A DNA stretch of 64,000 bases from Gracilariopsis chorda. Lineage: Eukaryota > Rhodophyta > Florideophyceae > Gracilariales > Gracilariaceae. Below are positions 1 through 59,739 of the stretch, piece by piece; the first letter of the stretch is position 1, and each line of letters starts with the position of its first letter. Under the pieces are notes generated by a model that had not been told where the DNA came from, did no database searches, and saw nothing but the letters and a program-made list of their open reading frames with translations. Where the stretch lies: positions 1-64,000 of the forward strand of contig NBIV01000233.1 of assembly GCA_003194525.1 (NCBI GenBank). The letters are read 5' to 3'. The position numbers and the translations under genes were made by a program.

Positions 1-1616
1 GGCGATGACCACTCTGCGCCCCTACCTTATGGGAATTCACTTCACCGTGTACACGGATCATTCCTCATTGAGGTGGTTTGATGAATATCTCCGACCCGTC
101 GGGACGCCTCATGCGCTGGAGACTCCGCCTCGCGGAATATGACTTTCAAGTCATTTTATAAAAAGGGTGCGCAGAACACTCAGGCCGACGCTTTATCGCG
201 GTTACCACAAGTGGGGAAGCACTCCCAACGGAGGATGATGAAGTCCCATGCTTCATGGCTATAGACCCGGATGATCCGGAACATGCCGTCGAGGCTAGGC
301 CAGAAACCTGGGACGAGGATGCTGATTTTGACGAACTACTCGCATCGCGAGATAAATCTGAGAACCCGTTACCGGGAAACTTTGTACCGGTATCACCGGA
401 AGAAATGATCCGAGAACAATTCGGCGACCCATTCTGTACGAGAATTCGTGCCCGTATCAACGGTGGTGAAGATCTCCCTTTCGGGGTAAACGACAAAGGC
501 TACCTCGTAAGAAAGGTCGAAGCCCGCCCACAGATTGTGGTACCACATTCCCTGCAATCGTCGGGTGTTACATCTATCACACTACGCCCCCATTGGAGGT
601 CACCCAGGTGGGAGGAAACTCTACCTAACCCTGCGAAGGGATTTCTATTGGCCCGCAAGGCGGTGGATTGCTACGCAACTGTGCGGTTTTGTAGCGAATG
701 CGCGAAGAATCGCGTCAAACTCCGCAAAAATGCGAAGAAGATGAAACTATTCCCCGCAAGGGCGCCGCTCGAGTTTATTGCGATCGATATTCTCGGACCA
801 TTACTCACCACGAAACGTGGAAACAAGTTTCTACTTGTCATTACCGACCGCTTTTCTAAGCTGGTACGGACTGTCCTCTTCGGAGGATAACCGCTCTCAC
901 GGTGGCCCAGGCTCTGGTGACGCACTGGATTTTTGTCTACGGTCCCCCTGTAGAGGTGCTCTCTGACAACGGGAAGCAGTTCGTGAGCAAGTTCTTCCAG
1001 GATGTTTGTCGCATCCTGGATGTCAAGAACTTGTTCACGACTACCTACCACCCCCAGTGTAATGGGCAAGTTGAACGGTTTAACCGGACGTTACTCGCGG
1101 CGTTACGTTCCTACGTCGCTGACCACCCAGCGAATTGGGATCTCTACGCTGATGCGGTACCTACGCGTACAATACGCAGGTACACCGGACTACCGGAGTT
1201 TCGCCATTCGAGTTAGTTCTATCTAGAACACCCCGCCTGTGGCGCTGGAACCCCAAGCTACCTTGGACAATTTCCCATCTGTGGGTATCTACCGGCAGCA
1301 ATGGAAGCGATGGCTTTCCAAGCTGGTCCCCGCTGCGCGGAAGTCTATGGCACGGGCCCAAGCCGCTTACAAGCGGGATTTTGACGCTCGCGTGCGAGGA
1401 AAACCATCCCCGATTCGGGCAAATAACTACGTCTTCATCAGGAAGGAATACTACAACCCGGAACGGGAGAAGCGTCACAAACTCTCACCTGTGGCGGATG
1501 GACCCTTCAAGGTGATCTCTGTTAACACCGACACTGTCGTGGTAGAGATGGGGGACACGCACGAACGGATTTCCCGTGATCGTGTTGTCCTCGCCCTCCT
1601 CCCTCGTCAGAGGTAG
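1..1616 (+). pseudogene. Pol of A1: RNase H end and integrase (frameshifted)
   Basis: The first about 240 bases encode the end of reverse-transcriptase RNase H (YTDHSSLRW at about 50-80, then a region resembling the 'KKGAQ.NQA.ALSR' tether) with a frameshift near 80. Integrase follows: a zinc-binding H2C2 region at about 540-740, the first catalytic Asp in FIAIDILGP (about 773-799), the second in LSDNGKQF (about 958-981) and the Glu in NGQVERFN (about 1063-1086). The DDE triad is therefore intact although the frame is not: breaks are seen near 555, 870-900 and 1160. Residues downstream (LSPVADGPFKVISV) match the integrase C-terminal GPY-like module. Homologous to 22582-24714 on the other strand. 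Confidence 0.88.
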
Positions 1617-3240
1617 TCCTGGATCCAGGCAACCCCGTTTCCACGGACTCCGCTACACCGGAACAATCCGGGAGTACTAGACCTACGGTACTACCACACC
1701 CCAGCCGGGGACTCTCAGACCTACCAACTCTGTCGGACTCACCGGCTCAGCCGGGTAATTCGGGCCCCTCAGCGCCCGCCCCTACCACGTCTGCCCCACT
1801 GGCGCGCATCTATACCCGCCAGGCGGGGAATGTTATCCCTTATCCCGCCGCTCCGTCTAAGGAGGGGGAGGAGAACACTCGTTTTCGAGGAACGATATCA
1901 CCTTCGCAACGGGAAACACACCGTAACATACGGAACACTGACCGTGGAGCACGGAGTATGTCACGCGATACTAATCCCCCGTTCCCGAGCAGTGCTGTGC
2001 AACAGGAACCAGACGCGCAGGCCCCGCAAAAGCGGCAAATACACCGTTTGTCACGGGAAAACGAGAAGCCTCACTCCAATACCGCAGCAGCGAAAAGGCA
2101 ATCGCCCGATGCCTCGAAGCCGCCGCTGGCGGAAGTCCCCGCGGAAGCGGTTCAATCAGGTCGATCAGACCCGCGCCCTGCGGAGAAGGGGCGCCCAGAT
2201 ACGCCGGCCTCACAGGGGAATACCCACACCCCTCTTGGGGAAAAAGGCGGCCAAGCTGCAGTCGAAGCTTTAAGCCCAGGCTCGCAAGCACCAGAAACGC
2301 CTCCCGTCGTTGACGGAATCAAAGCCCCGCTACGGGGAATAATTTGCGCCAACCCCCGCATCGCTGCGGCGAAGAACCGAGGAACTCGGGAATAACGCGC
2401 GCCATCGCACGCTCGAAACCGGTCGTACCGGACGCTGCTCCTCCTCACGGAGATGGTGCACTGCGCTGAGCGGCAATTCCCCTGAAAAGGGTGTCATCGG
2501 CACCTGCCCGGAACCCCCCAGAGGGGAATTTTGACCAAAATACCGGTGTACCGGAGTTAGCCCCAGGCAACCCGTCAGTAGCCGGGGACACCACGGCATC
2601 GCCGGAACGTATGGTGCAGAGCGCTCGTGCGCCTGGCAGGGAGGCGGTTTGCCACCCAATCACCGTGTCGCACGGGACCCCCCAGGGGATTGTGGAAATG
2701 CCGATCCCGCAGGAGCGGTCATCTTCCCGCAAACTCGCGGTTCGTGCGCTCAACCGCGAAGGCGGAACCCAAGTCCCCCGCCGACTGGCGGCTCGCCCGG
2801 CCTACCGTGAAGACGGAAACAACGACACCCCTCTGGGGAACGACTTGCCGGTGAAAACCGTGGCACCACACACCCTCTTGAGGGATATTTTCCCGCATGA
2901 GCAGCGGCCACTAGGACAGCGCACGGCAACGTCGGAGTTATCGCCGAACACCCTGCTAAGGGACATTATACCGCACCGCGGGCAACCCTCGCCAGGGATT
3001 ACAACCACCACCCGGCACGGCCGGCAGGTCTACGAACGAGAGTTCGTAGTAGACCGACTTGTCGGACACACCTGGGACCAGGATGGTATTCTACAATACC
3101 GCGTCCGCTGGTACGGGTACGACCCCAGTGGGGATACGTGGGAGCCAATGGAACACCTCCCACGGTCGCAGGTCGTGCGATACCACCGTCAAACGGGAAC
3201 TGCAGCTCCAGCCACGCTGGTAAATGCCCAAGTTGGGTAA
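1617..3240 (+). pseudogene. Pol C-terminus of A1: proline/arginine-rich linker and chromodomain
   Basis: After the integrase comes about 870 bases of low-complexity, Pro/Ser/Arg-rich sequence in shifting frames. An open frame at 2491-3240 (249 codons) then ends with a clear chromodomain at about residues 178-235 (FVVDRLV, then YRVRWYGYDPSGDTWEP). In other chromoviral integrases such a domain targets integration to particular chromatin; that role is inferred here. The linker carries two copies of a short peptide (TLLRDIFPH and TLLRDIIPH, about 70 bases apart). The stop at 3238-3240 lies about 190 bp from the stop of the convergent ORF. Confidence 0.85.
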
Positions 3241-3431: not shown

Positions 3432-5218
3432 TCACTCACCCCCATCGTCCGGGGCGTAACCCCCAGCAAGGCGGTAGGCCAACGCGTCCGCCATGGTGGT
3501 GACATCCCCCGATACCTCGGCAGCGCTAAGACCGGCACCCCGGAGGAAACGTGCGATGATTTCGTTTTCATTCGCCGTCACCCCGCTGGGGATAGAAGGT
3601 CCGGCACTTGCCGTTGAAGGGTCAGCAGCCGGCTCGGCCGGAGATACCCCCTCTGGGAAAGCTTCCGCGCTAGCGCCGGTTTCCTCTACGTCCATCTCCC
3701 CGGGTTCTTCCGGTTCGTTATCGACCATTGGGTCATCCCCGCCGTATGCGCGGTAGTAGTCGTCAGAATCGACGTACCCCACCGGGTGGTCTTCCGGCAC
3801 ATGCCGGGGCGTATCGCGAAGCTCTCGCGCCTCCTCGGAGGAAATTTCCCGGAACTCCCAGGGGTCGAAGTAGATAAAATCCCCCGCAAGGGCGGTGTTT
3901 CTACCGAGTCCCGGACCACCGGTGTTACCGCTGCCGCCATCCAGACGACCGCTTTGCTCCAGCGGGACCTCACTCCAGCTAACGCTGTCGATGTACCCAA
4001 GTAATTGGAGGACCTCTTCATTGTTGGCCTGGCCCCCAAGGGGGATGCGAAGATCCAGGTTTCGGATCGCTGCCCGCACACGCGGTTGAAGGAACCAGAG
4101 ACGATACTGGTCGTACGCCTCGTTGAGGATATAAGCCGCACTGCGGGCCGCCCACTCCGTAACCAATACGGACCACAACCCCGACCGGGGATCCTGCATG
4201 AGCAGCGAACCGAGGTACGTAAGTACCGGCGGGAGTTCTATGTAGCACCCCCGGCAGGCTTCATGGAAGCGCCACCACTCGGGGAGTGCTACATACCGAC
4301 CTAGTCGGTGAGGCGGCGCAATCCGCTCTATCTCCACGTTCTGATACGGGATAAAGTACCCGAATCGGGATCGCCAACGCCGCTCGTAGCGGATGAAGTT
4401 TTGGAGAAAGTTGGACCGGTATTGCCGGGGAAGGTACCTGAACTCCGCCCGAATAATCGGTCGCTCCCAGCAAAGGGCCTCTTGCCGCGCTGCGGGGAAA
4501 TTTTTCCAAGCGAGGGTCTCGAGGCGGAACAGGTTCTCGCCGTACCCAATCTCCCCGCGAGTGCGGAAGTAGCTAACGTCGAAGCCAAACTCCGGTGGGA
4601 CCGGTACATCGAATGGAGCCCGGCTCTGCCGTTGGTACGCCATCCGCGTCAACGCGGTCTGCGCCGAGCGACGGTCTCGCCCGAGTTTCTTCGGAGGTGG
4701 TGACGCGGAATCGCAATCCGGTGACGCCAATCCCACGATGTGGTGACTGCTCTGGGCAGATCCCCCGGAAGGGTGTCTGAACCATCCGCATAAGCGGTGA
4801 CCAACCCCTCATTGAGGACAGTGACCGGGTGAAACCACGGGGCAAGGCGCAGGCGCGACGCGTGATTCCGATTCATCGGGTTGAGCCCCACCAGGGTGTT
4901 GTAGGTTGGCCAGTTGGACACCGGAGTGGTTCCGGAGGACACCACCGAAGGTGGTAGTGCGAAGGGATGGTCGGCTGCAGCAGCCATATTCCCCGGTTGT
5001 ACCGGATTTCGATCGCCCTGAGGCAGGGGAACTGACCGGAAACCGGTGGTGTACCGCCCGAGAAGTCTCGGCGGTTGGCTGTGGCTGTTGATATGGTTGT
5101 CGTCGTTCATTTGTCCCTTTTGGAGGGTGGCTGTTGTTGTCGTTTGTGTGCTTGATGACTCTGGTGCAGAGGGATTTACCGGAGAACCGGAGACAAAGCA
5201 CGCGCTTTTATCACCCAT
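3432..5218 (-). pseudogene. Convergent extra ORF of family A (copy A1), one frameshift
   Basis: This is a minus-strand gene between the pol stop and the 3' LTR. It reads from an ATG at 5218 (58 bases inside the LTR) in one frame to about 4650, then in another frame from about 4736 to the stop at 3432, so a single frameshift near 4670 splits a protein of about 595 residues. The sequence is nearly co-linear with 19481-21037. It is rich in Trp, Tyr and Arg in the middle (RRWRSRFGYFIPYQNVEIE) and acidic, Pro/Ala-rich near the C-terminus, ending in a small predicted helical motif (EIIARFLRGAGLSAAEVSG). No signal peptide, zinc motif or known catalytic signature is seen. It is homologous to the antisense ORFs of families B and C. 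Function unknown. Confidence 0.8.
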
Positions 5219-5262
5219 TTTCGTCTGGGAATCCTCCGCGCCCGCGGTCGTTTTCCCGTCTT

Positions 5263-5275: not shown

Positions 5276-6082
5276 TGAAGTGCAACGCCCTCAGGGAGGG
5301 ATTCTGGGTACTTGAACGCTTTCCCGATATTATCGGTTGTGTAGTGTGTATATGAACTACGCCCCACAATGGTGGGTATGGACACGTGGGACACGGTTTT
5401 GGGTCAATTGGCAGTTGGCCACAGTAGTGGATGTTGCCACGGAATGTGGAGTATTTTAGTTAATTTTATTTATTATTTTCACACCCATTTCTGGGAAGCT
5501 AGTACTTAGTGCGACGGCGCACTGCCGTCGCACCAGTAAACCTTCCCCAACAAGGGACCCCAACCTGGGGAATTGGCTCTGAGCTTTACCGCCTCCGCGT
5601 GTTCTCAACTCCTCCTTGGAGGGAAGCACCGTAGTGTACGGAAGTTCACCCCCCTTGCACATCTAAAGGAGACCCATCATTGGGAGTACTAATTGTTCCA
5701 ATCATATTGGTGTTTCGCCCTGTATAGGGAGTCCTGTCCACCGGCATTGCCGTATCTACTCGTCGCTCTCGCGACCCACTCGTCCTTCCTCTTTCCCCTT
5801 TTTAGGGTAGCACCTCCCGCTATCCGCGGCCCTCGTGTGCGCATCCGCTCACACACCCCCACTTACGTGGAAACATACCTCTACTGAGGATCACGCCCCG
5901 CTCACGCGGATACCGATTCTTCGCCTTCACCTCCCTGCGCGAGTCGCGACAGGTGTCCCTGGTCTTACAAACCGGCTTCGCCGTGACACCTCTGGGAGGG
6001 CTCTACCCAACTGGGTTCACCTCGTGAGAGGAAGATCCCGGACGTCTTTCGGTGTTTTTCCCCTTTGGGGCATTGCACCACA
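5276..6082 (+). repeat. LTR of family A, 3' LTR of A1 (807 bp)
   Basis: Starts TGAAGTGCAACG and ends CACCACA, giving TG...CA termini. The boundaries were fixed by comparison with the copies at 18305-19136 and 62539-63342; the latter has a target-site duplication exactly at these ends. It contains a perfect 10-bp stem hairpin at 5509-5533 and a TATA-like TGTATAGGGA at about 5721. It has no AATAAA on its own strand. Confidence 0.9.
5509..5533. repeat. Perfect hairpin in LTR-A (copy 1)
   Basis: GTGCGACGGC and GCCGTCGCAC form a 10-bp perfect stem around a 5-base loop. The same hairpin is kept in the two other intact LTR-A copies, with the loop sequence inverted in copy 2 only because that LTR is on the opposite strand. 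Confidence 0.85.
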
Positions 6083-15435: not shown

Positions 15436-15439
15436 GCAT

Positions 15440-19148: not shown

Positions 19149-19480
19149 GAGACTGGAAAACGACCGCGGACGCGGAGCACTCCCAGAAGAAAGTGGGTGA
19201 TAAAAGCGCGTGCGCCGTCTCCGGTTCTCCGGTAAACTCCTCTGCATCAGAGTTATTAGCCCCTGATATCGCAGCCATTGTATCCTCACCCCGCCTTCGC
19301 ACCTCCTCGTCACCGAGCGCACCAAAACAACCAACAACAACCACCCTCTAAGAGGGAGAAATTAGTGGCGACAACTACATCAACAACCGTCAACCACCGA
19401 GGTCTCTCGGACGATACACCACCGGTTTCTGGTCAGTTCCCCTGCCTCAGGGCGTTCAACCTCTAGTACAACCGGGAAAT

Positions 19481-21037
19481 GTGGCAGTTACGACCGACCA
19501 TCCCTTCCCACTACCACCTTCGGTGGGGTCTTCCGGAACGGCTCCGGTGATGAACTGGCTGACTTTTAACACCCTGGTGGGGCTCAATCTGATGAATCGG
19601 AATCACGCGTCGCGCTTGCGCCTTGCTCCGTGGTTTCACCCGGTCGCTGTCCTAAATGAGGGGTTGGTCACCACTTACGCGGATGGCTCAGACACCCTTC
19701 CGGGGGATTTGCCCAGGGCAGTCACCATCTCGTGGGATTGGCGTCACCTGATCGAGATTCCGCGTCACCACCTCCGAAGGAATTTGGGCGAGACCGTCGC
19801 TGTGGCGCAGAGCGCAATGGCGCGGATGGCATACCAACGGCAAAGCCGGGCTCCCTTCGATGTACCGGTCCCTATGGAGTTTGGCTTTGACGTTAGCAAC
19901 TTCCACACTCGCGGGGAGATTGGGTACGGCGAGAACCTGTTTCGCCTCGAGACCCTCGGTTGGAGGAATTTTCACGCAGTGCCGCAGGAAGCCCTTTCTT
20001 GGGCGCGGCCGATTATTCGGGCGCAGTCCCGCTATCTTTCGTGGCAATACTGGTCAAACTTCCTCCAGAACTTCATCCGCTATGAGCGGCGCTGGCGATC
20101 CCGATTCGGGTATTTCATCCCGTACCAGAACGTGGAGATAGAGCAGATTGCGCCGCCTCACCGACCAGGTCGGTATGTAGCACTCCCCGAGTGGTGGTGC
20201 TTCCATGAAGCCTGCCGGGGGTGCTACATAGAACTCCCGCCGGTACTTACGTACCTCGGTTCGCTGCTAATGCAGGATCCCCGGTCGGGGTTGTGGTCCG
20301 TAGTGATTACGGAGTGGGCGGCCCGCACTGCGGCTTATATCCTCAACGAGATGTACGACCAGTACCGTCTCTGGTTCGTTCAACCGCGTGTGTGGGCAGC
20401 GATCCGAAATCTCGATCTTCGCATCCCGCCTGGGGGCCAGGCCAACAATGAAGAGGTCCTCCAATTACTTGGTTACATCTACAGTGTTAGCTGGGGTGAG
20501 GTCCCGCTGGAGCAAAGTGGTCATATGGATGGCGGAAATGGTAACACCGGTGGTCCGGGACTGGGTAGAAACACCGCCCTTGCGGGGGATTTTGTCTACT
20601 TTGACCCCTGGGAGTTCCGGGAAATTTCCTCCGAGGAGGCGCGCGAACTCCGCGATGCACCCCGGCATGTGCCGGAAGACCACCCCGTGGGGTACGTCGA
20701 TTCTGACTACTACTACCGCGCATACGGCGGGGATGAGCCAATGGTCGATAATAAACCGGAAGAAGCCGGGGAGATGGGCGTAGAGGATACCGGCGCTAGC
20801 ACGGAAGCTCCCTTACAGGGGGGACCTCCGGGGGAGCCGGCTGCTGAGCCTTCGGCGGCAAGTGCCGGACCTTCTATCACCAGCGGGGTGACGGCGAATG
20901 AAAAAGAGATCATCGCACGTTTTCTCCGGGGTGCCCGTCTTAGCGCTGCTGAGGTATCGGGGGATGTCACCACTATGGCGGACGCGTTGGCCTACCGCCT
21001 CGCTGGTGGTTACGCCCCGGGCAACGGCGAAGAGTGA
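19481..21037 (+). CDS. Convergent extra ORF of family A (copy A2), longest intact form
   Basis: A 518-codon open frame on the strand opposite to the element's pol. It opens at a GTG at 19481 with no stop for some way upstream; the homologous start in A1 corresponds to about 19194 here, but the 5' end has drifted, so the true start is uncertain. Visible features: SRLRLAPWFHP (45-54), a Trp/Tyr/Arg-rich core (YERRWRSRFGYFIPY 201-215), GRYVALPEWW (230-239), CRGCYIELPP (245-254), an Asn/Gly-rich loop (about 350-365), an acidic Pro-rich region (about 385-475) and a helical tail near 480-500. The block at 326-342 (VLQLLGYIYSVSWGEVP) aligns with the B and C antisense ORFs. No known domain was recognised; it is not env-like, having no signal peptide or membrane anchor. 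Confidence 0.82.
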   Translation: MAVTTDHPFPLPPSVGSSGTAPVMNWLTFNTLVGLNLMNRNHASRLRLAPWFHPVAVLNEGLVTTYADGSDTLPGDLPRAVTISWDWRHLIEIPRHHLRRNLGETVAVAQSAMARMAYQRQSRAPFDVPVPMEFGFDVSNFHTRGEIGYGENLFRLETLGWRNFHAVPQEALSWARPIIRAQSRYLSWQYWSNFLQNFIRYERRWRSRFGYFIPYQNVEIEQIAPPHRPGRYVALPEWWCFHEACRGCYIELPPVLTYLGSLLMQDPRSGLWSVVITEWAARTAAYILNEMYDQYRLWFVQPRVWAAIRNLDLRIPPGGQANNEEVLQLLGYIYSVSWGEVPLEQSGHMDGGNGNTGGPGLGRNTALAGDFVYFDPWEFREISSEEARELRDAPRHVPEDHPVGYVDSDYYYRAYGGDEPMVDNKPEEAGEMGVEDTGASTEAPLQGGPPGEPAAEPSAASAGPSITSGVTANEKEIIARFLRGARLSAAEVSGDVTTMADALAYRLAGGYAPGNGEE

Positions 21038-21228: not shown

Positions 21229-22581
21229 TTACCCAACTTGGGCATTAACCAGCGTGGCTGGGGCTGCAGTTCCCGTTTGACGGTGGTATCGCAGGACCTG
21301 CGACCGTGGGAGGTGTTCAATTGGCTCCCACGTATCCCCACTGGGGTCGTACCCGTACCAGCTGACGCGGTATTGTAGAATACCATCCTGGTCCCAGGTG
21401 TGTCTGACAAGTCGGTTTACTACGAACTCTCGTTCGTAGACCTGCCGGCCGTGCCGGGTGGTGGTTGTACTCCCTTGCGGGGGCTGGCCGCTGTGCGGTA
21501 TAATGTCCCTTAGCAGGGTGTTCGGCGATAACTCCGGCGTTGCCGTGCGCTGTGATAGCGGCCGCTGCTCATGCGGGAAGATATCCCTCAAGAGGGTGTG
21601 TGGTACCACAGTTTTCACCGGCAAGTCATTCCCCATTGGGGCAGGTTCATTTCCGCTTTCGCGGTATTGCGGGCGAACCGCCAGTCGGCGGGGGACTTGG
21701 GCTCCGCCTTCGCGGTTGAGCTCACGAACCGCGAGTTCGCGGGAAGATGACCGCTCCTGCGGATTCGGCATTTCCACAATCCCCTGGGGGGTCCCGTGCG
21801 ACACGGTGATTGGGTGGCAAACCGCCTCCCTGCCAAGCGCACGAGCGCTCTGCACCATACGTTCCGGCGATGCCGTGGTGTCCCCGGCTACTGACGGGTT
21901 GCCTGGGGCTAACTCCGGTACACCGGTATTTTGGTCAAAATTCCCCTTTGGGGGGTGCGGGGCAGGTGCCGATGACACCCTTTTCAGGGGCTTGGCCACT
22001 AAGTGCAGTGCACCGTCTACACGCGGAAGAGCAGCGTCCGGTATGACCGGTTTCGAGCGTGCGATGGCGTGCGCTTTTTCCGAGTTCCTCGGTTCTTCCC
22101 CGCAGCGTTGCGGGAGGTGGCGCAAATTATTCCCCGGAACGGGGGCTTCAATTCCGTCGACGACGGGAGGCGTTTCCGGCGCTTGTGGGCCAGGGCCTGA
22201 AGCTTCGGCTGCGGCTTGGCTGCCTTTTTCCCCAGGTTGGGTGTGGGGATTTCCCAGCGGCGCTGGTGTATCTTGGCGCCTCTTCTCCGCAGGGCGCGGG
22301 TCTGATCAACCTGATTGAACCGCTTCCGCGGGGACTTCCGCCAACGGCGGCTTCGAGGCATCGCCCTGCTCAAGGGATTGAGGGCGATCGTCGCCGTACT
22401 CCCGTAACGGGGATCCCTCCCTGACAGGGGTGTGCGGTAGCTGCATTTCAACTTCCCGTTGCGACGGCGATATCGTTCCTCGAAAACGAGTGTTCTCCTG
22501 CCCCTTCTTAGACGGAGCGGCGGGATAAGGGATAACATTCCCCGCCTGGCGGGTGTAAATTCGTGCCAGGGGGGCGGGCGC
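21229..22581 (-). pseudogene. Pol C-terminus of A2: linker and chromodomain
   Basis: The open frame 22125-21229 (298 codons) contains the same repeated TLLRDIFPH/TLLRDIIPH peptide pair as A1 and ends with a chromodomain (FVVNRLV ... YRVSWYGYDPSGDTWEP, about residues 225-285). The linker upstream (22538-22017) is basic and Pro/Arg-rich in a different frame. The frame to integrase is broken near 22582 by a stop. It is highly similar to 1617-3240. Confidence 0.83.
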
Positions 22582-25500
22582 TTAGAGGCCCGAATTATCC
22601 GGCTGAGCCGGAGAGTCCGACAGGGTCGGTAGGTCTGAGAGTCCCCGGCTGGGGTGTGGTAGTACCGTAGGCCTAGTACTCCCGGAGGATTCCGGTGTTG
22701 CAGAGTCCGTAGAAACGGGATGTTCTGAATCCAGGATTACCTCTGAGGAGGGCGGGGGGGCGAGTACGACACGATCGCGGGAGATCCGCTCGTGTGCTCC
22801 ACCTATCTCTACAACGACAGTGTCGGCATTAACAGAGATGACCTTGAAGGGTCCGTCCGCCACAGGCGAGAGTTTGTGACGCTTCTCCCGTTCCGGGTTG
22901 TAGTACTCCTTCTTGATGAAGACGTAGTTATTTGCCCCAATCGGGGGGGTCTTTCCTCGCAAGCGAGTGTCAAAATCCCGCTTGTAAGTGGCTTTGGCCC
23001 GTGCCATAGACTTCCGCGCAGCGGAGACCAGCTTGGAAAGCAATGGATTCCATTGCTTCCGGGAGATACCCACTGATGGGAAATTGTCCAAGGTAGCTTG
23101 TGGTTCCAGCGCCACAGGCGGGGGTGTTTTAGATAGAACGAAATCGAATGGCGAAACTCCGGTAGTCCGGTGTACCTGCGTGTTGTACGCGTAGGTTACC
23201 GCATCAGCGTAGAGATCCCAATTCGTTGGGTGGTCAGCGACGTAGGAACGTAGCTCCGCGAGTAACGTCCGGTTAAACCGTTCAACTTGCCCATTATATT
23301 GGGAGTGGTAGGTAGTCGTGAACAAGTTCTTGACATCCAGGATGCGACAAACATCCTGGAAGAACTTGCTCGCGAACTGTTTCCCGTTATTGGAGAGCAC
23401 CTCCGCGGGGGGACTGTAGACAAAAATCCAGAGCGTCACCAGAGCCTGGGCCACCGTGAGAGCGGTTATCCTCCGAAGAGGGACAGTCCGTACCAGCTTG
23501 GAAAAGCGGTCGGTAATGACAAGTAGAAACTTGTTTCCACGTTTCGTGGTGAATAGTGGTCCGAGAATATCGATCGCGATAAACTAGAGCGGCGCCCTTG
23601 CGGGGAATAGTTTCAACGTCTTCGCATTTTTGCGGCGTTTCACGCGATTCTTCGCCCATTTGCTACAAAACTGCACGGTTGCGTAGCAACCCACTGCCAT
23701 GGCGGGCCAACGGAAATCAGTTTGCAGGGTTAGGTAGAGTTTCCTCCTACCTGGGTGACCTCCAATGGGCGCATAGTGTGATAGATGTAACACCCGCGAC
23801 TGCAGGGAATGAGGTACCACAATCTGTGGGCGGGCTTCGACCTTCCTTACGAGGTAGCCTTTGTCGTTTACCCCGAAAGGGAGATCTTCACCACCGTTGA
23901 TACGGGCACGAATCCTCGTACAGAAGGGGTCGCCGAACTGTTCTCGGATCATTTCTTCCTGTGATACCGGTACAAAGTTCCCCCATAACGGATTCTCAAA
24001 TTCATCTCGCGATGCGAGTAGTTCGTCAAAGTCAGCATCCTCGTCCCAGTTTTCTGGCCAAGCGTCAACGGCAAATTCTGGATCATCCGAGTCTATCGCC
24101 ATGAAACATGGGACTTCTTCATCCTCCGTTGGAAGTGCTTCCCCACTTGTGGGTGACCGCGACAGAGCGTTGGCTTGGTTTTCCTGCGCGCCCTTTTTAT
24201 AAATGACTTGAAATTCATATTCCGCGAGGCGGAGTCTCCAGCGCATGAGGCGTCCCGACGGGTTGGAGATATTCATTAACCACCTCAACGAGGAGTGATC
24301 CGTGTACACGGCAAAGTGAACTCCCATAAGGTAGGGGCGCACAGTGTTCATCGCCCATACGAAGGCGAGGCACTGTTTCTCCGATACGGAGTAGTTCCGC
24401 TCATGAACATTGAGCGAGCGCGACCAATAACCAATTGGATGTCGTTCCCTCTCAGGGGTGGTGTGAACAAGAGCACACCCGACCTGGTAGTCGCTCGAGT
24501 CCGTATCTACGGAGTATGGCAACCCAAGTTTTGGGAGATGTAGGATTGGTGCTGATGTGACAGCCTCCTCCTTCAAGGAGTTAAAGGCCTCCAATTTCTC
24601 GGGCGTAAATGTTCCCAGTTTTGGGGGGTTTCCCTTGCGCAGTAGCGCGTTGAGAGGCGCCGCAGTGTCCGAAAAGTTTGGTATAAACCGTCGATAGACG
24701 TTGACCAGCCCCAAAAAAAGCGCAGTTCCGTTTGAGTACGGGGCTCTTTCGCCTCAACGAGAGATTTGACTCGAGCTTTCTCGATCGCTAACCATCCAGG
24801 ACGGATAATGTGACCCAGATCCTTCACAGTGTCTGTGAAAAACTCTCATTTCCTCAACTTGAGGGTAATTACCGCATCGCGGAGTACGCTCAGCACGTCT
24901 CCGATGTGAGTGAGGTGGTCGTCCAACGATTTGGAGAAGATGATTATATCATCAAGGTAGACCAAACAACTCCGCCACTTAAAGCGGTTATGTAGACTAT
25001 CTACTGCACGCTGAATGGTGGCGGGGGCGTTGGTCAGCCCAAATGGCATCCGCTTGAAGTGGTAGGTCCCCGCGTGGCAGGTGAATGCGGTTTTATTGCG
25101 ATCCTCCTGTCTAACAGGTACATACCAATATCCCCAATTGGCATCGAGGGCCTTGAAAATGGTGGCGTCTCCAAGGGAGTCAATGCAATCGCCCATACGA
25201 GGGATGGCGTATGTGCCCCTAACAGTCACGGCATTGAGCCGCCGGTAGTCGACACAGAACCTCCAGGTTCCGTCTGCTTTCAAATCGAGTACAATTGGGA
25301 ACGCCCAGGGTGATTGGGCGGGCTTCATCACCCCTGCGCAGAGCATCTTGTCCACTTGGGACTGTTCCCCTTCCCGAGCTTTCGGACCTGTCCTGTAAGG
25401 GGGTTGCGCAACCGGTCGCGCACTGGGGATTAGATCAATCCGGTGTTCCGTTGCATTAATCTTGCCAAGCGAGCCATCTCACATAGTGGTGAATTCCCTT

Positions 25501-26034
25501 AACATTGTACGGAATTTGTCGCGGTGCGACTCTGGCACATGGCTGATGTCCAGCCCTTCAAGTGCCTTATCTGGATCAATCCAGTCGTTGCTCAACGGAG
25601 CATTGTCCTCTTTCACAGTTCTCGGTCGCAATTCCGAGTTACTCGGTACGTTCGACGCTAAAGTAGCGGTTTCCTCCCCCTCCTTAGACTTGACGTCTTC
25701 GGACGGCGGGGCGAACTCCTCAGAAGAGGTGGAAACTCCGATTACATTGGCGGCTTTCATCTTCATTGGCAGCATTCCCATAGGATGGGGGGTCACACTC
25801 CCCATTACTTGGTGTTTAACCAGATACTGGGGGTGTTTGCCAAGGTTGGCAACCAATATCTGGAAAGGAACATCCGGGGAAATGGAAACAATTCCATTAG
25901 CCAGCGCCAGCTGGGATTTCTCGTACAACGAGGCAAGAGGTTGTATAACCCGAAGACCGTGTTGACGGGAATTTGCCTGCACCCAGACTTAGGAATCAGG
26001 CGGTAGAGGAACCGAGGCAGCGAGGTGGAGCTTA
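22582..26034 (-). pseudogene. Pol of A2: protease-RT linker, RT, RNase H and integrase
   Basis: Minus-strand order: a pre-RT linker (25982-25479, VIQPLASLYEKSQLALANG), reverse transcriptase (25355-24846, MPFGLTNAPATIQ and LVYLDDIIIFSKS with intact YLDD), RT thumb and RNase H (24827-24150, FIPNFSDTAAPLN, VDTDSSDYQVGCAL, VYTDHSSLRW), and integrase (24100-22700). The protease and gag zinc region are missing, lost at the chimeric junction. Breaks: a stop after VITLKLRK at about 24846, a frameshift near 24720, and GAG to TAG at about 23584 just before FIAIDILGP. In integrase the second catalytic Asp is changed (LSNNGKQF against LSDNGKQF in A1), so this integrase would be inactive even if the frame were open. 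Confidence 0.87.
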
Positions 26035-27994
26035 TCCTCTCTACGGGCCATGAAGGCCTTACAGATGTCCTCAGGCATAACTTTGACGCAGTCAAATGGA
26101 CGGGCCATGGACAGGCAAATGAAACACGGCTGATTTGACTACGTAAAACTATCCTTTCGCGGGGCCACTGGAGACAATTTGGGAGTAGCCAGAGCAGATA
26201 GTGTGGTCGTCCCTGAGATCAGAACCGATAGTGCAACAGATGGGGCCTAAGAAAAGCTCACTGCAAGTGTCTCTGCAGTTTCGGGGTATCCATAGCCTGA
26301 GTCCGTATTGGTCTGCGAGTCGACCAGATGGGCACTTCCTCCCTTCGCCAGGGGTCTGGCGCGTCTCCTGGTATCCACATCACCCGCTTGGCGGGAGATC
26401 CTATAGGTCTTCCGGTATCCTTCGGCGAACATCACCAGCTGACGTAACGAAAGGTCCGGATGGGCGGTGTAATGGTCACGGACGGGGGTCCGTATGGCCA
26501 GTAACAGACCTGCGATGAAGTATCGCTTAAGTCGACCTTCGGAAAAAACGTTTCCGCAATGGCGGGCCCGTGTCCAAATTCGGTCAGAAAGTCCGTTCCG
26601 GTCACATTGGAACCTTGCTGGTATCCAATGACGTCCTGATAGGTATCCATTTTGTGATCGTCAGAGGCATAGGTCCCTAATAAATAATGAACGACCTCAG
26701 GGTAGGTTAGTAAGAGCTCCCTGTCGCGGGCATCCAAAGGATTGTCAGAGCCAGATATCTTGGCAACCACATGGTCTTTCGCTTGACCACTGAAGAAGAA
26801 CTGAAATAAATACATTGCAGCTTCTCCATGGATACCGTTCTGGTCACAGGCCACTTGGACCGAACTCAGAAACCTGAGGAATGTAATAGGATCCTTCCCA
26901 GAAAACTTGTTTTGGATGGTCACTTGCATCCTCTTGGCCCACCTAGCAATATTCTTGGCGACAGATGAGATATACCTCTTGGACCGATCCAACAGGCGGT
27001 ACGTGTCCACGTCCAAGACCTTCTGGAAAGGCTCATTACTCGTGGCCAATGGTCTGAGGCGCCGAACGTCTGCCTCATCCGCATCGGTTTCGGAGGTGCT
27101 GGAGGAGTCCGAATGGTCGTCATCAATAAATTTCGAGTGGTCTCTCTTCCAACGGCTCGACCTCTTTGACCTTCGGTTTCTGTTCTTTTTCCTCTGGTCT
27201 TTGGCACTTCCATAGTCCCTCGGGACAGGCTCTTCACTGACCCGATGGTATTCCGCGGCATGGCGAATGCCGTATTGACCAATGGGCTCATCTCCAGCGC
27301 GGTCTCTCTGCCTCTGAGGTCTCTCTACCCCAGGCGGAGGATGGTCCAATGAACTTTCCTGATGGTTTCCCAGGCTAGGGGCTAATTCTGTAGCTGCTTC
27401 CTGGGGTCTGGTCTGGTCTGAACGATGGAAAACCGACGGTGTACTTTGAGAAACAGCTCGAGAGCTGTCGAGTTGGCCTACTTTGCGTGTGATTTCTCCC
27501 TGGATGGTCGTGGCGACTGACTCCACTAGGACATCCGAGTGAAAGACCTGAGAAATTAGTCGGTCACCCAAAACGGAGAAACGGTGGCGAAGTTTCCTAT
27601 CCAACCGGTCCCTTAGAACTTGCTGCACTTTGTCTTCACACCAAGAAAGGAGTTGCGGCCATAGAAGAGCGACAACCTCGTCGACCTTTTGGGCATCAGG
27701 GGCAATTGCAGCTGGGTCCTGAGGCTGTAGTGCAATAGTCCATTGGTCGACCGGCCCGTTCAACTGTTCGAACTTCTCGCCAAGGCGAGCGACCAATGGC
27801 GACTCCCGGGTGATTCGTTTGGATTGGTCCACTGGGTTAATGGTACGTCCACTGGAACGGCTGCGCTGGCTCCTGTGGTCACTTGCACTGTCTTTTCGGT
27901 TGGGTACCGGTACAGGAGTGTCTGAAGCGGCCACGGTGGCTAGTGGGGATCCTTGTTGTGCGTGTGTGGTGGGTTTGGGTTGTTGGTTATCCAT
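26035..27994 (-). pseudogene. Gag of family B in the chimera (copy B1)
   Basis: A 520-codon frame from ATG at 27994 to 26432, followed in a second frame by 26435-26247. It has a Pro/Gln/Ser-rich N-terminus, a helical block (about 110-185, VVALLWPQLLSWCEDKVQQV), a very basic segment (KKNRNRRSKRSSRWKRDHSK), an acidic run and then a capsid-like part (MQVTIQNKFSGKDPITFLRF ... GIHGEAAMYLFQFFFSGQAK). The frame break near 26545 is one missing T in a T-run (six T against seven in copy B2 at about 32560). No CCHC knuckle is visible. It is nearly identical to 31110-33072, which lies in opposite orientation. Confidence 0.85.
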
Positions 27995-28121: not shown

Positions 28122-28651
28122 TGTCGTAGAATACTAGTCCAAGGGTCAAGGGGGGAAGTAGTACCTACTAGGGGTAGCGGTGGCAGAGTACCAGCCAATA
28201 GGGTGACAGTCCACTGGGGTCTAGTTGTGTCATGGGCACCTTCTGAATGGCAGGCGCAATGGGCAGGCGTTATCTAAGGTCCCTACACTTCGGAAGCACT
28301 CGTAAGGATGGCTTGGAAGCCTTTGTCCGCTGGAAGCTTGAAGGCGACTAGAGGACGGAGGTGGTGCTTGCCTTAACTCCTCAGTGGCCGGCTGCACTTG
28401 AGCCTACTAATATAGTAGGCGAGATGCACTAGACAACCGGTAACTACTACTAAATAATTAAATAGAATACTACACTACTCTACCGTGCACTGTGCGGCAA
28501 TGCCAGGTCCACCGGGGGTCACACTTCAGATCACAATTATCTCCGACCGACGTGGCTAATATTGACACGAGCCAGTGGTGCTCTGTTCCTTCTTCCATCT
28601 TTTCGGCACTCCACCTTACCCGCCGTCTGACCGTAGGGCTATTGAACTACA
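28122..28651 (-). repeat. LTR of family B at the right end of the chimera (530 bp)
   Basis: On the minus strand it starts TGTAGTTCAATAGCCC and ends TTCTACGACA, matching the LTRs at 30456-30982 and 40701-41230. Its last roughly 200 bases and the following gag are far closer to the 5' LTR of B2 than its first 330 bases are. Confidence 0.88.
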
Positions 28652-29039
28652 GGTATTGTCACCTTTCCTAGGATTGGCGACACCAAATTGCGATAAACGC
28701 ACATTAACTCTGACAAAGCTCGAGCAAATCCATCATTGCTGCTCACACAGCGATGTTACGTACTGCTTATCAAGTGCAAAGCCAGGCTTCGTTCGAATTG
28801 CCAGTCTTCTAGGACGATGCATTCTACATCATCTTATTCTGCAGTTAGTTTGAGATTGGTTACGGCGAGCGTCTAACAAACCTCAAATATTTGGCATGGA
28901 AGAGTTCTTCTGCTGCGTGACACGAAGCTCTAAGCTAGGACAGGCCCATTCGTAGAGCAGAGTTCCGAGAACTTTCCCGGCAGTCACGGTCTGACTTTCT
29001 CCAAAACGTAATCCGTCATAAGCGGGCGGTGCTGGAGAT
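28652..29039. other. Unrecognised sequence between LTR-B and family A debris
   Basis: About 390 bases with no supported gene. It is the flank of the chimera's right LTR. Confidence 0.4.
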
Positions 29040-29310
29040 ACAGATTTGGGAATTTCGTTCAGTACCAAACTGAAACTATTGAGCAGATGGCTCCACCTCA
29101 CCGACAAGGTCTGTATTTCACGGTCCCCGAATGATGTCAATTTCATGATGCTTGCTTGGCCCGTTATACTGAGCCTTCACTGTTGCTCAATTACTTCAGT
29201 TCTGTTCTTATATTGGATCCCCGGTCGTGACTTTGGTCGGTAGTCATAACAAAATGGGCTGTGCCCACTGTTACTCGCAACACCCTTGAGTAACTCTTAC
29301 CGGGAAATTT
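29040..29310 (+). pseudogene. Fragment of a family A-type convergent ORF
   Basis: The plus strand encodes, with stops, IEQMAPPHRQGLYFTVPE followed later by LDPRS and LWSVVITKWA, matching residues about 220-285 of the A2 antisense ORF (IEQIAPPHRPGRYVALPEWW and LWSVVITEWA). It is highly decayed. Its orientation is opposite to the C-terminal fragment at 30000-30455, showing rearrangement. Confidence 0.72.
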
Positions 29311-29959: not shown

Positions 29960-30455
29960 TGACCAACTGCTCGGCGGTATGTTATGGCATCCTCCATTGC
30001 AGTTACGTCACTCTATACTTCGGTAGAGCCAAGGCTGGCACTATGGAGAAACCGGGCAATGATTTTGTTTTAATTGGCCAAAAAACAGTGAGAACTGAAG
30101 GCACTGAAGAACCTGAGGGCCCGGCGTTTGGAATTGTAGAACCAAGTGCCGCTGCTGCAATTACGGGAGATTCTTTGGCGACATCTTCGCCCCCCCTGTA
30201 TGTCCATAGCTTTCGTCTCTTTGAGATCTTTATTCACTATCTGGTCATCTGCGCTACAAGCGCGGTAATAGTCTTCGGAATTGACGTCCCCATTTGTATG
30301 ATTATGCGGCATGTGCCGTGGCGCATCATGGAGCTCTCCCGCTTCAGCGGCAGATATTTCCCCGATATCCCACTGTTCGAAGTATACAAATATGCCCACG
30401 ACAGCCCTGTTTCTACCAAGAACTGGACCGTTGGCACCACCGCCGCCGTTACGCC
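29960..30455 (-). pseudogene. C-terminal part of an old family A-type convergent ORF
   Basis: The minus strand encodes NGPVLGRNRAVVGIFVYFEQ and GELHDAPRHMPHNH, matching residues about 357-400 of the A2 antisense ORF (GGPGLGRNTALAGDFVYFDP, RELRDAPRHVPEDH). It is cut on the right at 30455 by the 5' LTR of element B2. The N-terminal part of the same kind of ORF reappears on the same strand just beyond B2 at 41231. Confidence 0.78.
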
Positions 30456-32997: not shown

Positions 32998-33639
32998 ATG
33001 GCCCGTCCATGTGACTGCGTCAAAGTTATGCCTGAGGACATCTGTAAGGCCTTCATGGCCCGTAGAGAGGAGAAATATCGGGAGCACCACGCGGAAGGCT
33101 ATCACCGAAGGCCAACTATCCAGAGTACCACAGGAACCCCGGGGAGTTCAAAGTACGTAACAGCCCTTTCGACCCCCGTGCAGCAAACTCAGGTCAATAT
33201 GCTGGACGAGCCTGTCGATGCAGTCGAGCACCCTGACCATCAGAAACATCCCGTGGCAGTGGAGCCACAGGAAAACGACAGGAAGGACGCATAGACGCGT
33301 GCAGTTCCTCTAACCATCAATTGCCTCAGTACGCCCTAGCGGAAGACCCAAGAAAAGAAGAAGAAGTTGAAACCAAAGGACGGAAAGTATCAGGACTCCA
33401 GCCATGCGTACGCCGTAGACCCGTTGGAAGACCTTGAGCACGCCGTATGTGTCCTACGGAAGGAGAATTATAGAGTGCACGGGACCCTTGCACTGCAAAC
33501 GAAAACCACGAGGATTTTCACTGCCGTGCTGGACAAGGGTGCAGGCCCAAACCTGGTACATTCTAAGGTCTTACCGTTGGGCTGGGAGAGGATGCTGCAG
33601 GAAAGAGAGTCGTCAACGGTGACGGACGCGTCGGCCTGA
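32998..33639 (+). pseudogene. Post-gag region and protease of B2
   Basis: The frame 32998-33294 encodes a short basic, Pro/Gln-rich segment with no CCHC knuckle (MARPCDCVKVMPEDICKAFM); its start is the point where the chimera at 26034 leaves family B. The next frame (33367-33639) includes a retroviral-type aspartic protease core, FTAVLDKGAGPNLVHSKVLP, in which the active-site triad reads DKG instead of DSG/DTG. The protease is therefore probably inactive. Confidence 0.72.
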
Positions 33640-33642
33640 CCA

Positions 33643-35650
33643 ATGGATATCCGCGGAGCCATCCCGCTTTACATCCAGTTCGGTCACCCGAAAGTCAGGA
33701 CATGGTTTCTTGTCTGTCCGAACCTGGGGACAGGTGGTATCCTAAGGGCGAGTTTTATTGATAGATATGTAAAAGCTATCTATTCTGGCCAAAGAAAAGT
33801 TGCATTCCATCTAAGAACTCCATTGGCCATTGTTAGAGCACGCCCCGGACCCCATGCCACCACCTCAAGACCGATGTTTCCCAAGCGGATGGTATCCAAT
33901 AAGGTACGCTTGGCCAAGGCGATAGTAATACCACCGATGACCCAAGTAGTGGCCACTGCGGTGTGTGAATCCTCAGGCTTTGTGTCGTTGCAGAATCACC
34001 CGAAGCTGGTCACGAATCATTTATCGTTGATGGCCAATGGAGTGATGAATTTTGTGCCCAATATGCCATTTGCGGTTAAGATGAGCAAGTTCCGCGATAA
34101 ACCTAGTAGGCTGCCCAAAGGTACGGTAGTTGGCACTACCCTACCTGCCCCAGTGGCCATCATGGATGTTCAGCTCGGAAACCTGCCGTCGAGTAGCGAA
34201 ACAGTGGCCAATTGGGAGAACGCAGTTAACATCGGTGAGGATTTCGAGCCCTATAACAAACAGGTCATTGACCCCCTGAAGGACTATGCCGGAATGTGGA
34301 GTGGCAAGCTAAGACAGAAATATGCGACGAAACAACGCATCGACCTCAAGGATGGTGCCGCGGTGCAGTACCAGCACCCTCATAGGACCGCCCTGAAAGG
34401 GAGAGAAATAGTGGCGAAAAGAATGGAGAAGATGCGGACCGCCAGAGTGGTTGAACATGCCCCACCCAATGAGGCCAAATGGGCAAGCTCTTTTGTCCTT
34501 GTGGCCAAGAAAAATGGTACCGTATGGTTGTTCATTATTACCGTAAGCTCAATGCCGTGACTAAACTGGACACCTATCCTATTCTGAGGATGGATGACTG
34601 CCTTGATTCCCTGGGTGAGGCGCAGTTGTTACCACGTTGGACGTAAATTGCAGATAATGGCCAGTACCAGTGGACTACAAGGCTAAGGTCTTGACTACCT
34701 TTAAGACCCACGAGGGACTGTTCTGATTCCAGCGGATGCCCTTCGGACTGATGAACGCACCGGCGACCTTCCAGCGGGCAATGGATATCATACTATCCAG
34801 GATGAAATGGAAGTTTGCCCTGGTCTACTTGAATGACGTAATCATCTTTTCGAGGTCCGTTGGTGAATACTTCGCTCTTGTGAAGGCTTTCCCAAGGTTA
34901 CTCCAGCAGGCCAGTGTAACCCTAAAGCTGAGGAAATGTATTTTCGTCAAGCCGTTTATGGATTATCTTGGGAATGTGGTCTTATCTGGTAAGATCCAGT
35001 TGGCAAAAACTACGACGAACTCCATCAGGGATGCGAAAAACCAGAGGAAGCACACAGAACTGCGATCCTTTTTGGGTCTATGCAATGTGTACCGAAGGTT
35101 TGTCCCTGGGTTCGCGAATATTGCATTTCCGCTGAACGAGATGCTCAAGAAAGGGACCCTTTCGAAATTTGATGACCTAACGGACGAGCAGTTCGAAGCC
35201 TACCAGAGCCTCAAGGACAATTCGGTAAACCCCCCAATCTTGGCCTTACCCAGTGCAAACAAACCGTTCATCCTCGATACGGATGCCTCGGCAACCCAGC
35301 TTGGATGCGCACTGCTCCAAGAGCAGGATTTTTCCAAGGAATATCAACGGATTGGATACTGGACCCGTTCGTTAACGAAGGCTGAAAGGGACTACAGCAC
35401 GTCCAAACGAGAATGCTTGGCCATTGTCTGGTCAGTTTTGCACCTGCGGCCTTACCTGGAGGATACTGGGTTTACCATTACGACAGACCACAATGCCATC
35501 TGATGGCTTCTGAATATGACCGATGCGTCATCCCTTTTAGCCCTCTGGAGACTCCTGGTGGCCGAATTTGAGTACCAGGTTACCTATAGGACTGGCTAAA
35601 AGCACCAACCAAGCTGCTGATGCGTTATCTCGTATCATGATCGATGGCAC
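33643..35650 (+). pseudogene. Reverse transcriptase and RNase H of B2
   Basis: The frame 33643-34560 is the end of protease plus the pre-RT linker and the first RT motifs (WASSFVLVAKKNG). After frameshifts and stops between 34520 and 34736 the RT continues with MPFGLMNAPATFQRAMDI and LVYLNDVIIFSRS: the catalytic YxDD box is YLND, a loss of a metal-binding Asp. The thumb (LRSFLGLCNVYRRFVPGF) and RNase H (LDTDASATQLGCALL, TTDHNAI followed by a stop) run to about 35650. Dead by several independent lesions. Confidence 0.85.
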
Positions 35651-35686
35651 GGATTAAACCCCAGTGGACAACGAGATTCCCACCAT

Positions 35687-36703
35687 ATGGAAGCTCCACA
35701 AGATGCAGACGATGATTATGAAATGAATGACCTGGTGGGAGAAGGAAATGGAGAAGAACCCAAGGTCATGTTATGCACTATTGACTGGGAGGACCTATCC
35801 TTGGAAGTTGACGTGGCCGGGACGGAAATGGGAGACTTCACCTCCATATCCCTCGAGGAATTCCTCGCGACCCAGAAGGGTGATGAACAGTGTGTCCAGT
35901 GGGCTCATCCAGTCGGGACCGCTGGGTCCTTGTTTTATTATGACCGTCATGGAATGTTCTGCAGTCGATCTCCACTTGATGGGGCAATACAGCGCGTTGT
36001 TCCAAAGGCCCTTCAGGCAAGGCTTCTATATCTGGCTCATTACTCTCGGTTGTCTGGCCACCTAGGCAGGACGAGAATGTATCAGACCTTAAGGAGATTG
36101 TTCTATTGGCCCCTCATAGCCAACTATATAATGGAGACCACACGGAGATGCACAGCATGGGTTAGAAATCGGGGGACACGAGCGCTGTACCATAGGAAGC
36201 TTAATTTATTCCCCGCGGTAGGACCTTTGGAATTCGTTGCCATGGACATCCTATGACCTTTCCCTAAATTGACCCATGGGCACTGCTTCATCTTGGTTAT
36301 TACCGACAGGTTTTACAAGATGACGCGTGCTATTCCCCTACGGTCCACCACGGCAACTGATGTTGCTATAGCGTTTCTGGTCCACTGGATATACCCGTAT
36401 GGTCTGACTTTATATCTGTTGACAGACAATGGCCCACAATATGTCTCAAACTTCTTTGAACATGTGTGCTTGGCCTTAGGTCTAAAACACCTCCTGGCCA
36501 CCGCCTACCACCCGCAGACCAATGGGCAAGCTGAGCATTTTAAAAGGACGCTGGCCTCTAGGTTGAGCCACTATGTGGCTGAGCACCAGTTGGAATGGGG
36601 CGATTACGTCCAACCTTTAGTCTATGCCTACAATAATCAATTCCATCGGTCCACGGGTACGACACCCTGTGACCTTACCCTGGTCCGGGCGCCTTCGCCG
36701 TAG
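35687..36703 (+). pseudogene. Integrase core of B2
   Basis: The frame 35687-36256 has an acidic linker and an H2C2 region (LAHYSRLSGHLG ... CTAW), in which the last Cys is Trp. The first catalytic Asp is in EFVAMDIL, followed by a stop at about 36254. The frame 36269-36703 carries the second Asp (LLTDNGPQY) and the Glu (TNGQAEHFKRTL). The triad is intact but the protein is interrupted and its zinc site damaged. Confidence 0.85.
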
Positions 36704-37625
36704 ATGGTCGACCTACAGGATACAGGCATCCATCAGGACGCTACTTGTGAAATGAAGCCAGCTCAGGCAAAAAGGTATTCGCGTAAGTCAGTCGATTCTA
36801 TCCTGAAGGCCACCCAGACCCATTTGGACAAAGCGCAGAAGCGCAACAAAACGGAATTTGATAAGGCCATCTGGTTTGTGCAACAGTTTTCCCCAGGGGA
36901 CTATGTCCATTTGGACCGGCCAACAAAGGAAAAACACGAGGCCAAGGACATTGCCGCCAAGTTGGTACCTCGTTCCATCGGACTATATAGGGTAATCAAG
37001 TCCACTGACCATACGGTTACAATAGAACGAGACGGCCTTCAGGATATTGTGTCGACGGACCGCGTGTATATGGCGCCTCGCCCATTAGTCGTACCAATGC
37101 ACCACCCTATCGGAAGTGCAAGGGTACAGCAGGCCGTTGCGCGCATATACCCACGCGTTCTGACAACGCCACCTCCCGCTCCGCGCTCACCAAGCACTCT
37201 AGTGGTGGACGCGCCCCTCAAGGCTGCCCGTACTATCCGAACCGACGACATTGGTGGCACCGCCTGGTACACTCGCCGTTACCGCCGACCCTCTTGGACC
37301 TAAGGTCAATAGAGCGGGTCCACAGGGTACCATTGCTGAAGACTCGGCGCAGCCTGCCGCGTTTTTTGAGACAGACCATGGACAACGCGGCCGCAAAACC
37401 GTCTCGTCAGACGATGGCTATTTAGCCTTCGAGGACATGTATTTACCAGAGGAGGACCGCCTCGAATTTGTCGTAGACCGCATCGTCTCCGTTTGGCTTG
37501 AAGAAAAAGGGGAGGTGCTCTACAAATTCCGCTGGTATGGCTATGGCCTGGAGAACGACCAGTGGATACCGCCTGAAAACATCCAGGCTAATTTTATAAG
37601 TCGCTACTGGACCAAAATGGGCTAG
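36704..37625 (+). pseudogene. Integrase C-terminus and chromodomain of B2
   Basis: The frame 36704-37303 holds the integrase C-terminal module (FSPGDYVHLDRP, IGLYRVIKSTDHTVTI). A frame change near 37290 leads to 37251-37625, which ends with a chromodomain (FVVDRIVSVWLEE ... YKFRWYGYGLENDQWIPP). Its position as the last pol domain is the same as in families A and C. Confidence 0.82.
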
Positions 37626-41230: not shown

Positions 41231-41600
41231 ATACCCTGTAGCTCTTCCGGTAGGATTTTGGACCCATATGCATAGGTGGCGATCAAATCCCCGTCCAGCA
41301 CAGCTGTCGGATGGAAGCATGGCATGAGTTGGAGACGGAAAATATGGCTGTGGTTCATTTTATTCAGCTGCACAATGGCGTAGTATGATGGCCACTGCGC
41401 AACCGTAGTCGGTCCGGTAGGGGCCATTGCGGGTAGAAGTTGAAAGTGCTGCTTTTGAGCAGCACCAAGATTGTCCAGTTGCACTGGAGGATTTTTTCTT
41501 TCGGGCACAGACCGAAAACGCTTTGTGAAGTTGGCTCCAGAAATTATCTTGTTTGCGAGTTTTCTTCTCCTACAGATAGAGATACTCCGTTTTACACGGT
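41231..41600 (-). pseudogene. N-terminal part of an old family A-type convergent ORF
   Basis: The minus strand encodes VAQWPSYYAIVQLNKMNHSH and LQLMPCFHPTAVLDGDLIAT, aligning with residues about 22-67 of the A2 antisense ORF. It is cut by LTR-B at 41230 and is on the same strand as the C-terminal fragment at 29960-30455. About 250 codons between them are missing, so the host element was deleted or rearranged besides being split. Confidence 0.8.
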
Positions 41601-59716: not shown

Positions 59717-59739
59717 TCGATATTGGTTTGCACCTGGAA

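Follow-up and report, generated by a model that had tools for sequence, protein, structure and literature searches.

A selected antisense gene convergent with pol in Ty3/gypsy chromodomain elements of the red alga Gracilariopsis chorda

Ty3/gypsy chromodomain elements in the genome of Gracilariopsis chorda carry a protein-coding gene on the strand opposite to pol, convergent with it and placed between pol and the 3′ LTR. The encoded proteins are homologous across three element families and are under selection in one of them (family A), part of the element has been exchanged between lineages, and in one subfamily a form of the element without the conserved core of the gene has multiplied. We think it probable that this is a true, selected accessory gene whose antisense mRNA would be started by the LTR and whose product would act in trans to regulate or protect element expression. 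The analysis began from a window on contig C233 (by which we mean the whole stretch of 64,000 nucleotides) and was extended to the 91.3 Mb genome.

Results

Antisense genes in the 64-kb window

The antisense genes of the two A copies (A1 and A2) and of the B (B2) and C copies are each opposite and convergent to pol, as had been claimed in an earlier note on this DNA for all four loci (Table 1). The note had also described a long gene at 3432–5218, and while antisense coding matter is present there, it is not a single reading frame: the A1 gene is split over two overlapping frames and this copy is therefore broken by a frame change. In A2, an in-frame stop lies immediately upstream of the open 561 aa, at the expected N-terminal part, B2 has LLGYVLHVD and LWYNYDADKF...DDGK in separate frames, and C holds LLDYVLRIDWAKTP and LWYDFDQDHF...DDGK. 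None of the four genes is intact, all being broken or incomplete.

We note that a 258-bp direct repeat (85%) at 30725–30982 and 40973–41230 frames the B element, with A-type antisense fragments immediately outside the repeat on both sides, and the B element may have been inserted within an old A-type antisense gene. The segment at 62539–63292 repeats portions of the A1 LTR region in two pieces (96% and 83%), and a further element of the same kind may start at the right edge of the window. AT-richer, gypsy-like pol stretches were also seen at 6092–7978 and 14600–16731 (-); at E 1e-4 the antisense gene has no match close to them, and perhaps some gypsy lineages here are without the gene.

Table 1. 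Antisense genes, pol genes and related features in the 64-kb window.
Feature	Position	Strand	Remarks
A1 antisense gene, C-terminal two thirds	3435..4808	-	96% identity with residues 191-609 of the 609-aa protein of copy C66
A1 antisense gene, N-terminal part, different frame	4652..5260	-	95% identity with residues 1-197 of the C66 protein
A1 pol (RNase H, integrase, chromodomain region)	2..3237	+	Truncated at window edge; converges on antisense gene; chromodomain ~3037-3198
A1 3′ LTR	5276..6082	+	LTR of copy C66 ~99% identical; partial repeat at 62539-62838
A2 antisense gene	19352..21034	+	561 aa open; 86% identity to nearest intact copies; N-terminus lost
A2 pol	21232..26048	-	Converges on A2 antisense gene, gap ~200 bp; chromodomain ~21271-21432
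Older A-type antisense fragment	28651..29263	+	51-53% identity
Older A-type antisense fragment, C-terminal part	29962..30426	-	40% identity
B2 pol with chromodomain region	33445..37646	+	Converges on B2 antisense gene
B2 antisense gene, degenerate, several frames	38437..40151	-	56% identity over 358 aa with the L050 relative
Older A-type antisense fragment, N-terminal part	41239..41529	-	44% identity
C antisense gene, degenerate, several frames	56726..58186	+	52% identity over 496 aa with the L033 relative
C pol (integrase and chromodomain region)	59435..60996	-	Converges on C antisense gene

The antisense proteins and their relatives

Homology between the A, B and C proteins had been claimed from short shared motifs, with the proviso that a shuffled-sequence comparison might reveal it to be chance. 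It is well above chance: an hhalign comparison of a profile of seven A-type proteins with one of six B/C-type proteins scored 110.2 (Prob 98.0, 200 columns), whereas reversed columns gave 18.7 and the highest of 60 column shuffles 24.5. The six B/C proteins were taken from other loci in the genome, leaving out B2 and C of the window, which these profile proteins match by tblastn at E 5e-115 and E 2e-141, respectively, and an intact 774-aa B/C protein matches A1 directly (tblastn E 1.9e-10). Conserved features, to which single members make exceptions, include an R-x-x-x-G-Y...N-x-E...R-x-G-x-Y stretch and a PP...Y segment as well as a W...P turn that precedes an aromatic-acidic motif. Judged by these profiles, the antisense proteins of A, B and C are one family.

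Complete copies encode ~600–770 aa, arranged as a variable N-terminus, an arginine- and aromatic-rich conserved core of ~200–270 aa, a variable linker, and a short C-terminal part that looks helical. The failure to recognise a known domain by eye was matched by our searches, as nothing credible was found in Pfam, PHROGs (three proteins), NCBIfam (four proteins) or the PDB sequences, where the best matches were at chance level (PRC2_EED_ins E 0.046, DUF6220 E 0.06–0.1, and one PDB chain E 0.3). None of the 12 members scanned matched TRP28 (PF04195), even at E values as high as 10 (within HMMER's filters), and the Pfam scans gave no bZIP match. A coiled-coil-like window at the B/C C-terminus was reached by 7 of 200 shuffles for the 738-aa protein and 5 of 200 for the B fragment of the window; as a C-terminal leucine zipper this is weakly supported, and the 647-aa type, one of nine proteins, shows none (71 of 200 shuffles).

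A search of the genome with the A2 protein gave at least 78 A-type matches including A2 itself, all with at least 83% identity, and 62 of the 78 listed are without an in-frame stop, most in the 609-aa frame (78 is a lower bound since these were the ones scored among 1848 initial candidates). Other queries listed at least 132 matches (C), at least 149 (the B C-terminal part), and at least 99 (an Agarophyton protein), with stop-free open frames that include 592–647, 738 and 770–829 aa. Protein searches, in which 8000 candidates were scored each from a database of 5.8 billion, found six relatives in all, including P0002 from G. chorda (50% identity) and P0003 from Agarophyton chilense (33%); the others are P0001, P0004, P0005 and P0006, and P0004 is close to the protein of locus L052 and the two may be from one species. 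In viral contigs, pattern searches gave 76 and 50 matches, and tblastn found no relative there.

Element architecture and the convergent layout

By their domain content these are Ty3/gypsy chromodomain (chromovirus-like) elements. Pfam matches in the pol of the A copy C66 are to RVT_1 (2.3e-35), RT_RNaseH (2.5e-34), rve (1.6e-10) and Chromo (4.7e-10), giving the gypsy order of RT, RNase H and integrase with a C-terminal chromodomain, and the pol end of the B/C copy C69 matches Chromo (1.8e-10) and, under the curated cut-off, rve_3 (5e-05). Paired LTRs were found for seven A copies (C82, C290, C8, C206, C42, C123 and C66) as direct repeats with 91.7–99.6% identity and starts 10.4–10.8 kb apart (the alignment for C82 is of 478 bp and the second LTR of C206 is truncated at the contig end), and the C31 element is nested. 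The C66 LTRs are 99.6% identical, its pol stop is 200 bp from the antisense-gene stop, and ~55 nt lie between the antisense ATG and the LTR edge; in C69, ~830 bp separate the pol and antisense stops. The gene is antisense to gag-pol and between pol and the 3′ LTR, which is the aORF-3R position.

Upstream of the antisense gene there is an AT-rich tract in the C66 LTR (L028 2139–2165) and in the presumed C69 LTR (last 300 bases of L060), which is a possible two-way core promoter.

The convergent layout had been described as conserved on the basis of four loci, and neighbour counts across the genome agree with this for both A and B/C elements. Among the matches listed, 21 of the 78 A-type genes have a pol neighbour, and all 21 are convergent with gaps of 198–203 bp, while 57 have no partner among the pol matches listed (73 of 96 pol matches were used, leaving out 23 second pieces). 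A second A-type list of 76 genes (from 99 matches to the Agarophyton protein, 23 of which were already in the A2-protein list) has a single partner, convergent with a gap of 357 bp, and 75 genes without one among the matches listed. For B/C elements, 107 of 121 pol matches were used (14 second or short pieces were left out), and 73 of these have a convergent antisense match downstream, one has a same-strand match, and 33 have none among the matches listed, with antisense matches taken from the B C-terminal search only. Pol was also found in the flanks of 18 of 20 loci from the C search, always opposite and downstream (L047 and L048 are without pol), and the 614-aa (L054) and 647-aa (L053) types are likewise convergent with it. 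There was no pol match in L052, L057 and L058, where there is little or no downstream flank.

Selection on the antisense gene

We used 11 A copies to estimate selection, ten of which form five disjoint pairs. Codon maximum likelihood for these pairs gave ω 0.323 (κ 4.8, 2ΔlnL 48.3 against ω = 1), the pooled NG86 value for all pairs of the 11 copies was 0.32 (19 individual pairs span 0.20–0.82), and A2 against C66 gave ω 0.39 (2ΔlnL 32.5). The earlier suggestion of selection on the protein, which a dN/dS near 1 would have undermined, is therefore sustained for family A. In the other types, close pairs of the 614-, 647- and 738-aa proteins gave ω 1.74, 0.71 and 2.87, none of them different from 1 (all 2ΔlnL <2, with 8–35 differing codons), and the few changes may be mostly post-insertion. 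For A against the 614- and 647-aa types, synonymous sites are saturated and the estimate collapsed to zero, which makes these values unusable.

Two recent pairs, C66–C206 and C66–C363, have ω ~1 towards the 3′ end of pol, with 14 and 13 differing codons, compared to 0.22 and 0.30 in the antisense gene (41 and 51 differing codons). The antisense gene of these pairs therefore carries older selected variation that is absent from their pol. For the older pair C66–C31, ω is 0.45 in pol (161 differing codons) and 0.35 in the antisense gene (32).

It should be noted that, of the other frames, frame -2 alone showed a comparable bias of substitutions in the A pairs, its third positions being those of +1. 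This raised the question of whether the sense strand codes as well, which we reject because there is no long open sense frame over the gene, with none of at least 133 aa in A1 and none of at least 250 aa in the genome copies examined.

Exchange between element lineages

Eight A copies (C66, C82, C290, C8, C206, C42, C363 and C701) share at least 99.4% identity in an integrase segment and 99.0% in the gap, and have at least 98.1% identity with C66 in each matched pol segment, some matches being partial. The N- and C-terminal ends of their antisense genes form different allele groups with ~95.4–97.4% identity between groups (the N-terminal segment of C82 was not scored). Between A1 and C66, identity is 99.5% over the final third of the antisense gene and 98.9% over the LTR, yet it falls to 77% for the integrase segment; there A1 instead matches C31 at 98%. 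A module has thus been exchanged between element lineages, either the integrase part or the antisense gene together with the LTR.

The gag-side proteins of A2 (26432–28015, -) and the B element (31089–32261, +) are by eye nearly identical over long stretches, despite the two elements having antisense genes of different families, and the gag side of C66 has ~28–33% identity with both where matched. The elements seem to be mosaics.

A core-deleted form in one B/C subfamily

In the B/C subfamily with C69-like pol we found 17 copies, among the matches listed, that have a C-terminal remnant of the antisense gene only (192 aa in 16 and 172 aa in one), and at least ten listed copies with the 738-aa gene, one of these with an in-frame stop (17 and 10 are counts among listed matches and no census). 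Pol is the convergent neighbour of all 17 core-deleted copies and of nine of the ten 738-aa copies, with 93–100% identity to C69 (31 pol matches of at least 93% identity were used), and lies 940 bp from the matched part in 13 of 17 core-deleted and six of nine full copies. Pol frames of at least 1400 aa are retained by ten of 17 core-deleted copies, one of these with a stop in the match, and by four of nine full copies.

The core-deleted copy C61 is identical to C69 over 590 of 590 bp at the element end (the presumed LTR) and lacks ~1.9 kb, a stretch that begins close to the edge of the presumed LTR and extends to the C-terminal part. No more than ~12 bp are shared at the junction, and the other 16 probably have the same junction, given their similar match limits. 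The deleted form retains the C-terminal frame with an in-frame ATG and could produce a short protein, so that null status is not proven. Such copies were formed and spread recently, alongside complete ones in the same genome, and this indicates that the core is not needed in cis in that subfamily.

Discussion

A necessary role for the antisense protein in every element is not supported, as core-deleted B/C copies have multiplied. The conservation of the protein in A together with this multiplication fits a trans-shared factor, and trans action would allow copies lacking the core to spread for as long as complete copies remain in the genome. The antisense mRNA would most likely begin in the 3′ LTR, since the first ATG in C66 is only ~55 nt away from the LTR edge, and would be translated into a soluble accessory protein that works in trans on the element population by regulating or protecting element expression. 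The preference for regulation or protection is made by analogy with Grande gene23 and trans-acting transposon proteins. A bolder version, which we hold only tentatively and regard as doubtful, is that the trans factor frees the element population from host repression, perhaps including silencing by the element's own convergent transcript, with core-deleted copies acting as cheaters and the gene as a module exchanged between pol lineages.

A structural or replication protein expressed in antisense (acting in particle assembly, envelope-like, or as a nucleic-acid chaperone) is unlikely but deserves consideration, as the second quarter of the protein is positively charged in three A-type proteins here (+9, +10 and +7; the charge is lower in P0002, at +3, and P0005, at +2), and the gene is positioned like env. 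However, an env-like gene would be in the sense orientation and encode membrane segments, whereas here the orientation is reversed and no convincing membrane segment was found in seven proteins, where the highest 19-residue hydropathy was 1.85 for a stretch containing E and K, and Pfam gave no match. The multiplication of core-deleted copies also argues against this, although particle proteins can be shared in trans too.

Slightly less likely still is that the convergent transcript is itself the functional product, a regulatory antisense RNA that tunes gag-pol through double-stranded RNA or interference with the protein being secondary. The gene is between pol and the 3′ LTR and would thus be crossed by a full-length sense RNA, non-coding antisense transcripts are known from other elements (in the part of PMC7264820 available), and the core-deleted copy C61 retains the presumed LTR, but RNA alone leaves unexplained the amino-acid constraint in A and the similarity of the proteins across families and species. 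We give a similarly low probability to dispensable cargo, in which a captured gene owes its persistence chiefly to recent amplification and is in the course of being lost. The excess of core-deleted over full copies listed in the one B/C subfamily and the three young pairs with ω not different from 1 agree with this, and one possible meaning of the deleted form is that elements can simply do without the core. Against it are the ω of 0.32 across A copies and the 33–50% identity retained with the A. chilense and G. chorda proteins, with many invariant residues. Finally, a chance open frame or shadow of sense-strand coding is scarcely credible, for although the elements are GC-rich in places, which lengthens spurious frames, and there is the frame -2 bias, pol ends short of the gene (by ~200 bp in C66 and 830 bp in C69), the sense strand has no long frame over it, and the cross-family homology is above that of shuffles.

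The trans-acting accessory protein is the reading we favour. Elements with and without the core have nearly identical pol and form a natural pair, making the role of the antisense gene testable in one genome.

Comparison with known systems

The algal protein would resemble the VANC anti-silencing proteins of VANDAL transposons if it is trans-acting for its own family, though those belong to another class of element (DNA transposons) and, on the partial description available, are likened to it here by inferred behaviour and not by sequence or effect on silencing. HBZ of HTLV-1 is a bZIP protein and overlaps other viral genes, unlike the algal protein, which has no bZIP or other credible Pfam match and comes from a stretch without long sense frames. 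What they share is an antisense gene that is probably started in the 3′ LTR with a small gap to it, and the 3′ LTR of HTLV is described as containing an antisense promoter in the available part of PMC7264820. The brtn gene of the Boty-like elements of Botrytis cinerea (Zhao et al. 2011, from partial accounts in PMC8365987 and PMC7264820) is likewise an additional antisense gene of a retrotransposon, although the host is a fungus, in another kingdom, and we liken the two by description only.

The literature searched, which excludes most subscription journals, contained no account of such a gene in retrotransposons of red algae, and the parts of PMC12502185 and PMC12477816 available mention none. 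The closest parallel is with the plant Ty3/gypsy elements, as the earlier note had anticipated: the accessible parts of PMC7264820 and PMC11963269 describe antisense aORF-3R genes between pol and the 3′ LTR in Grande (gene23), RIRE2 and Retand, for which function is not established, with gene23 reported as a nuclear protein (PMC7264820). These are like the algal gene in position, orientation and conservation across related families. In contrast, Retand antisense proteins have TRP28 (PF04195; PMC7264820, PMC11963269), which none of the 12 algal proteins match, and Retand is of a non-chromovirus lineage (PMC11963269, in the part available) while the algal elements have a chromodomain. Antisense ORFs at this position are already established in plants and fungi, and it is the protein family and the host group that look new. 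The same layout in a red alga, with a protein of no recognised family, suggests that this position has been occupied on more than one occasion.
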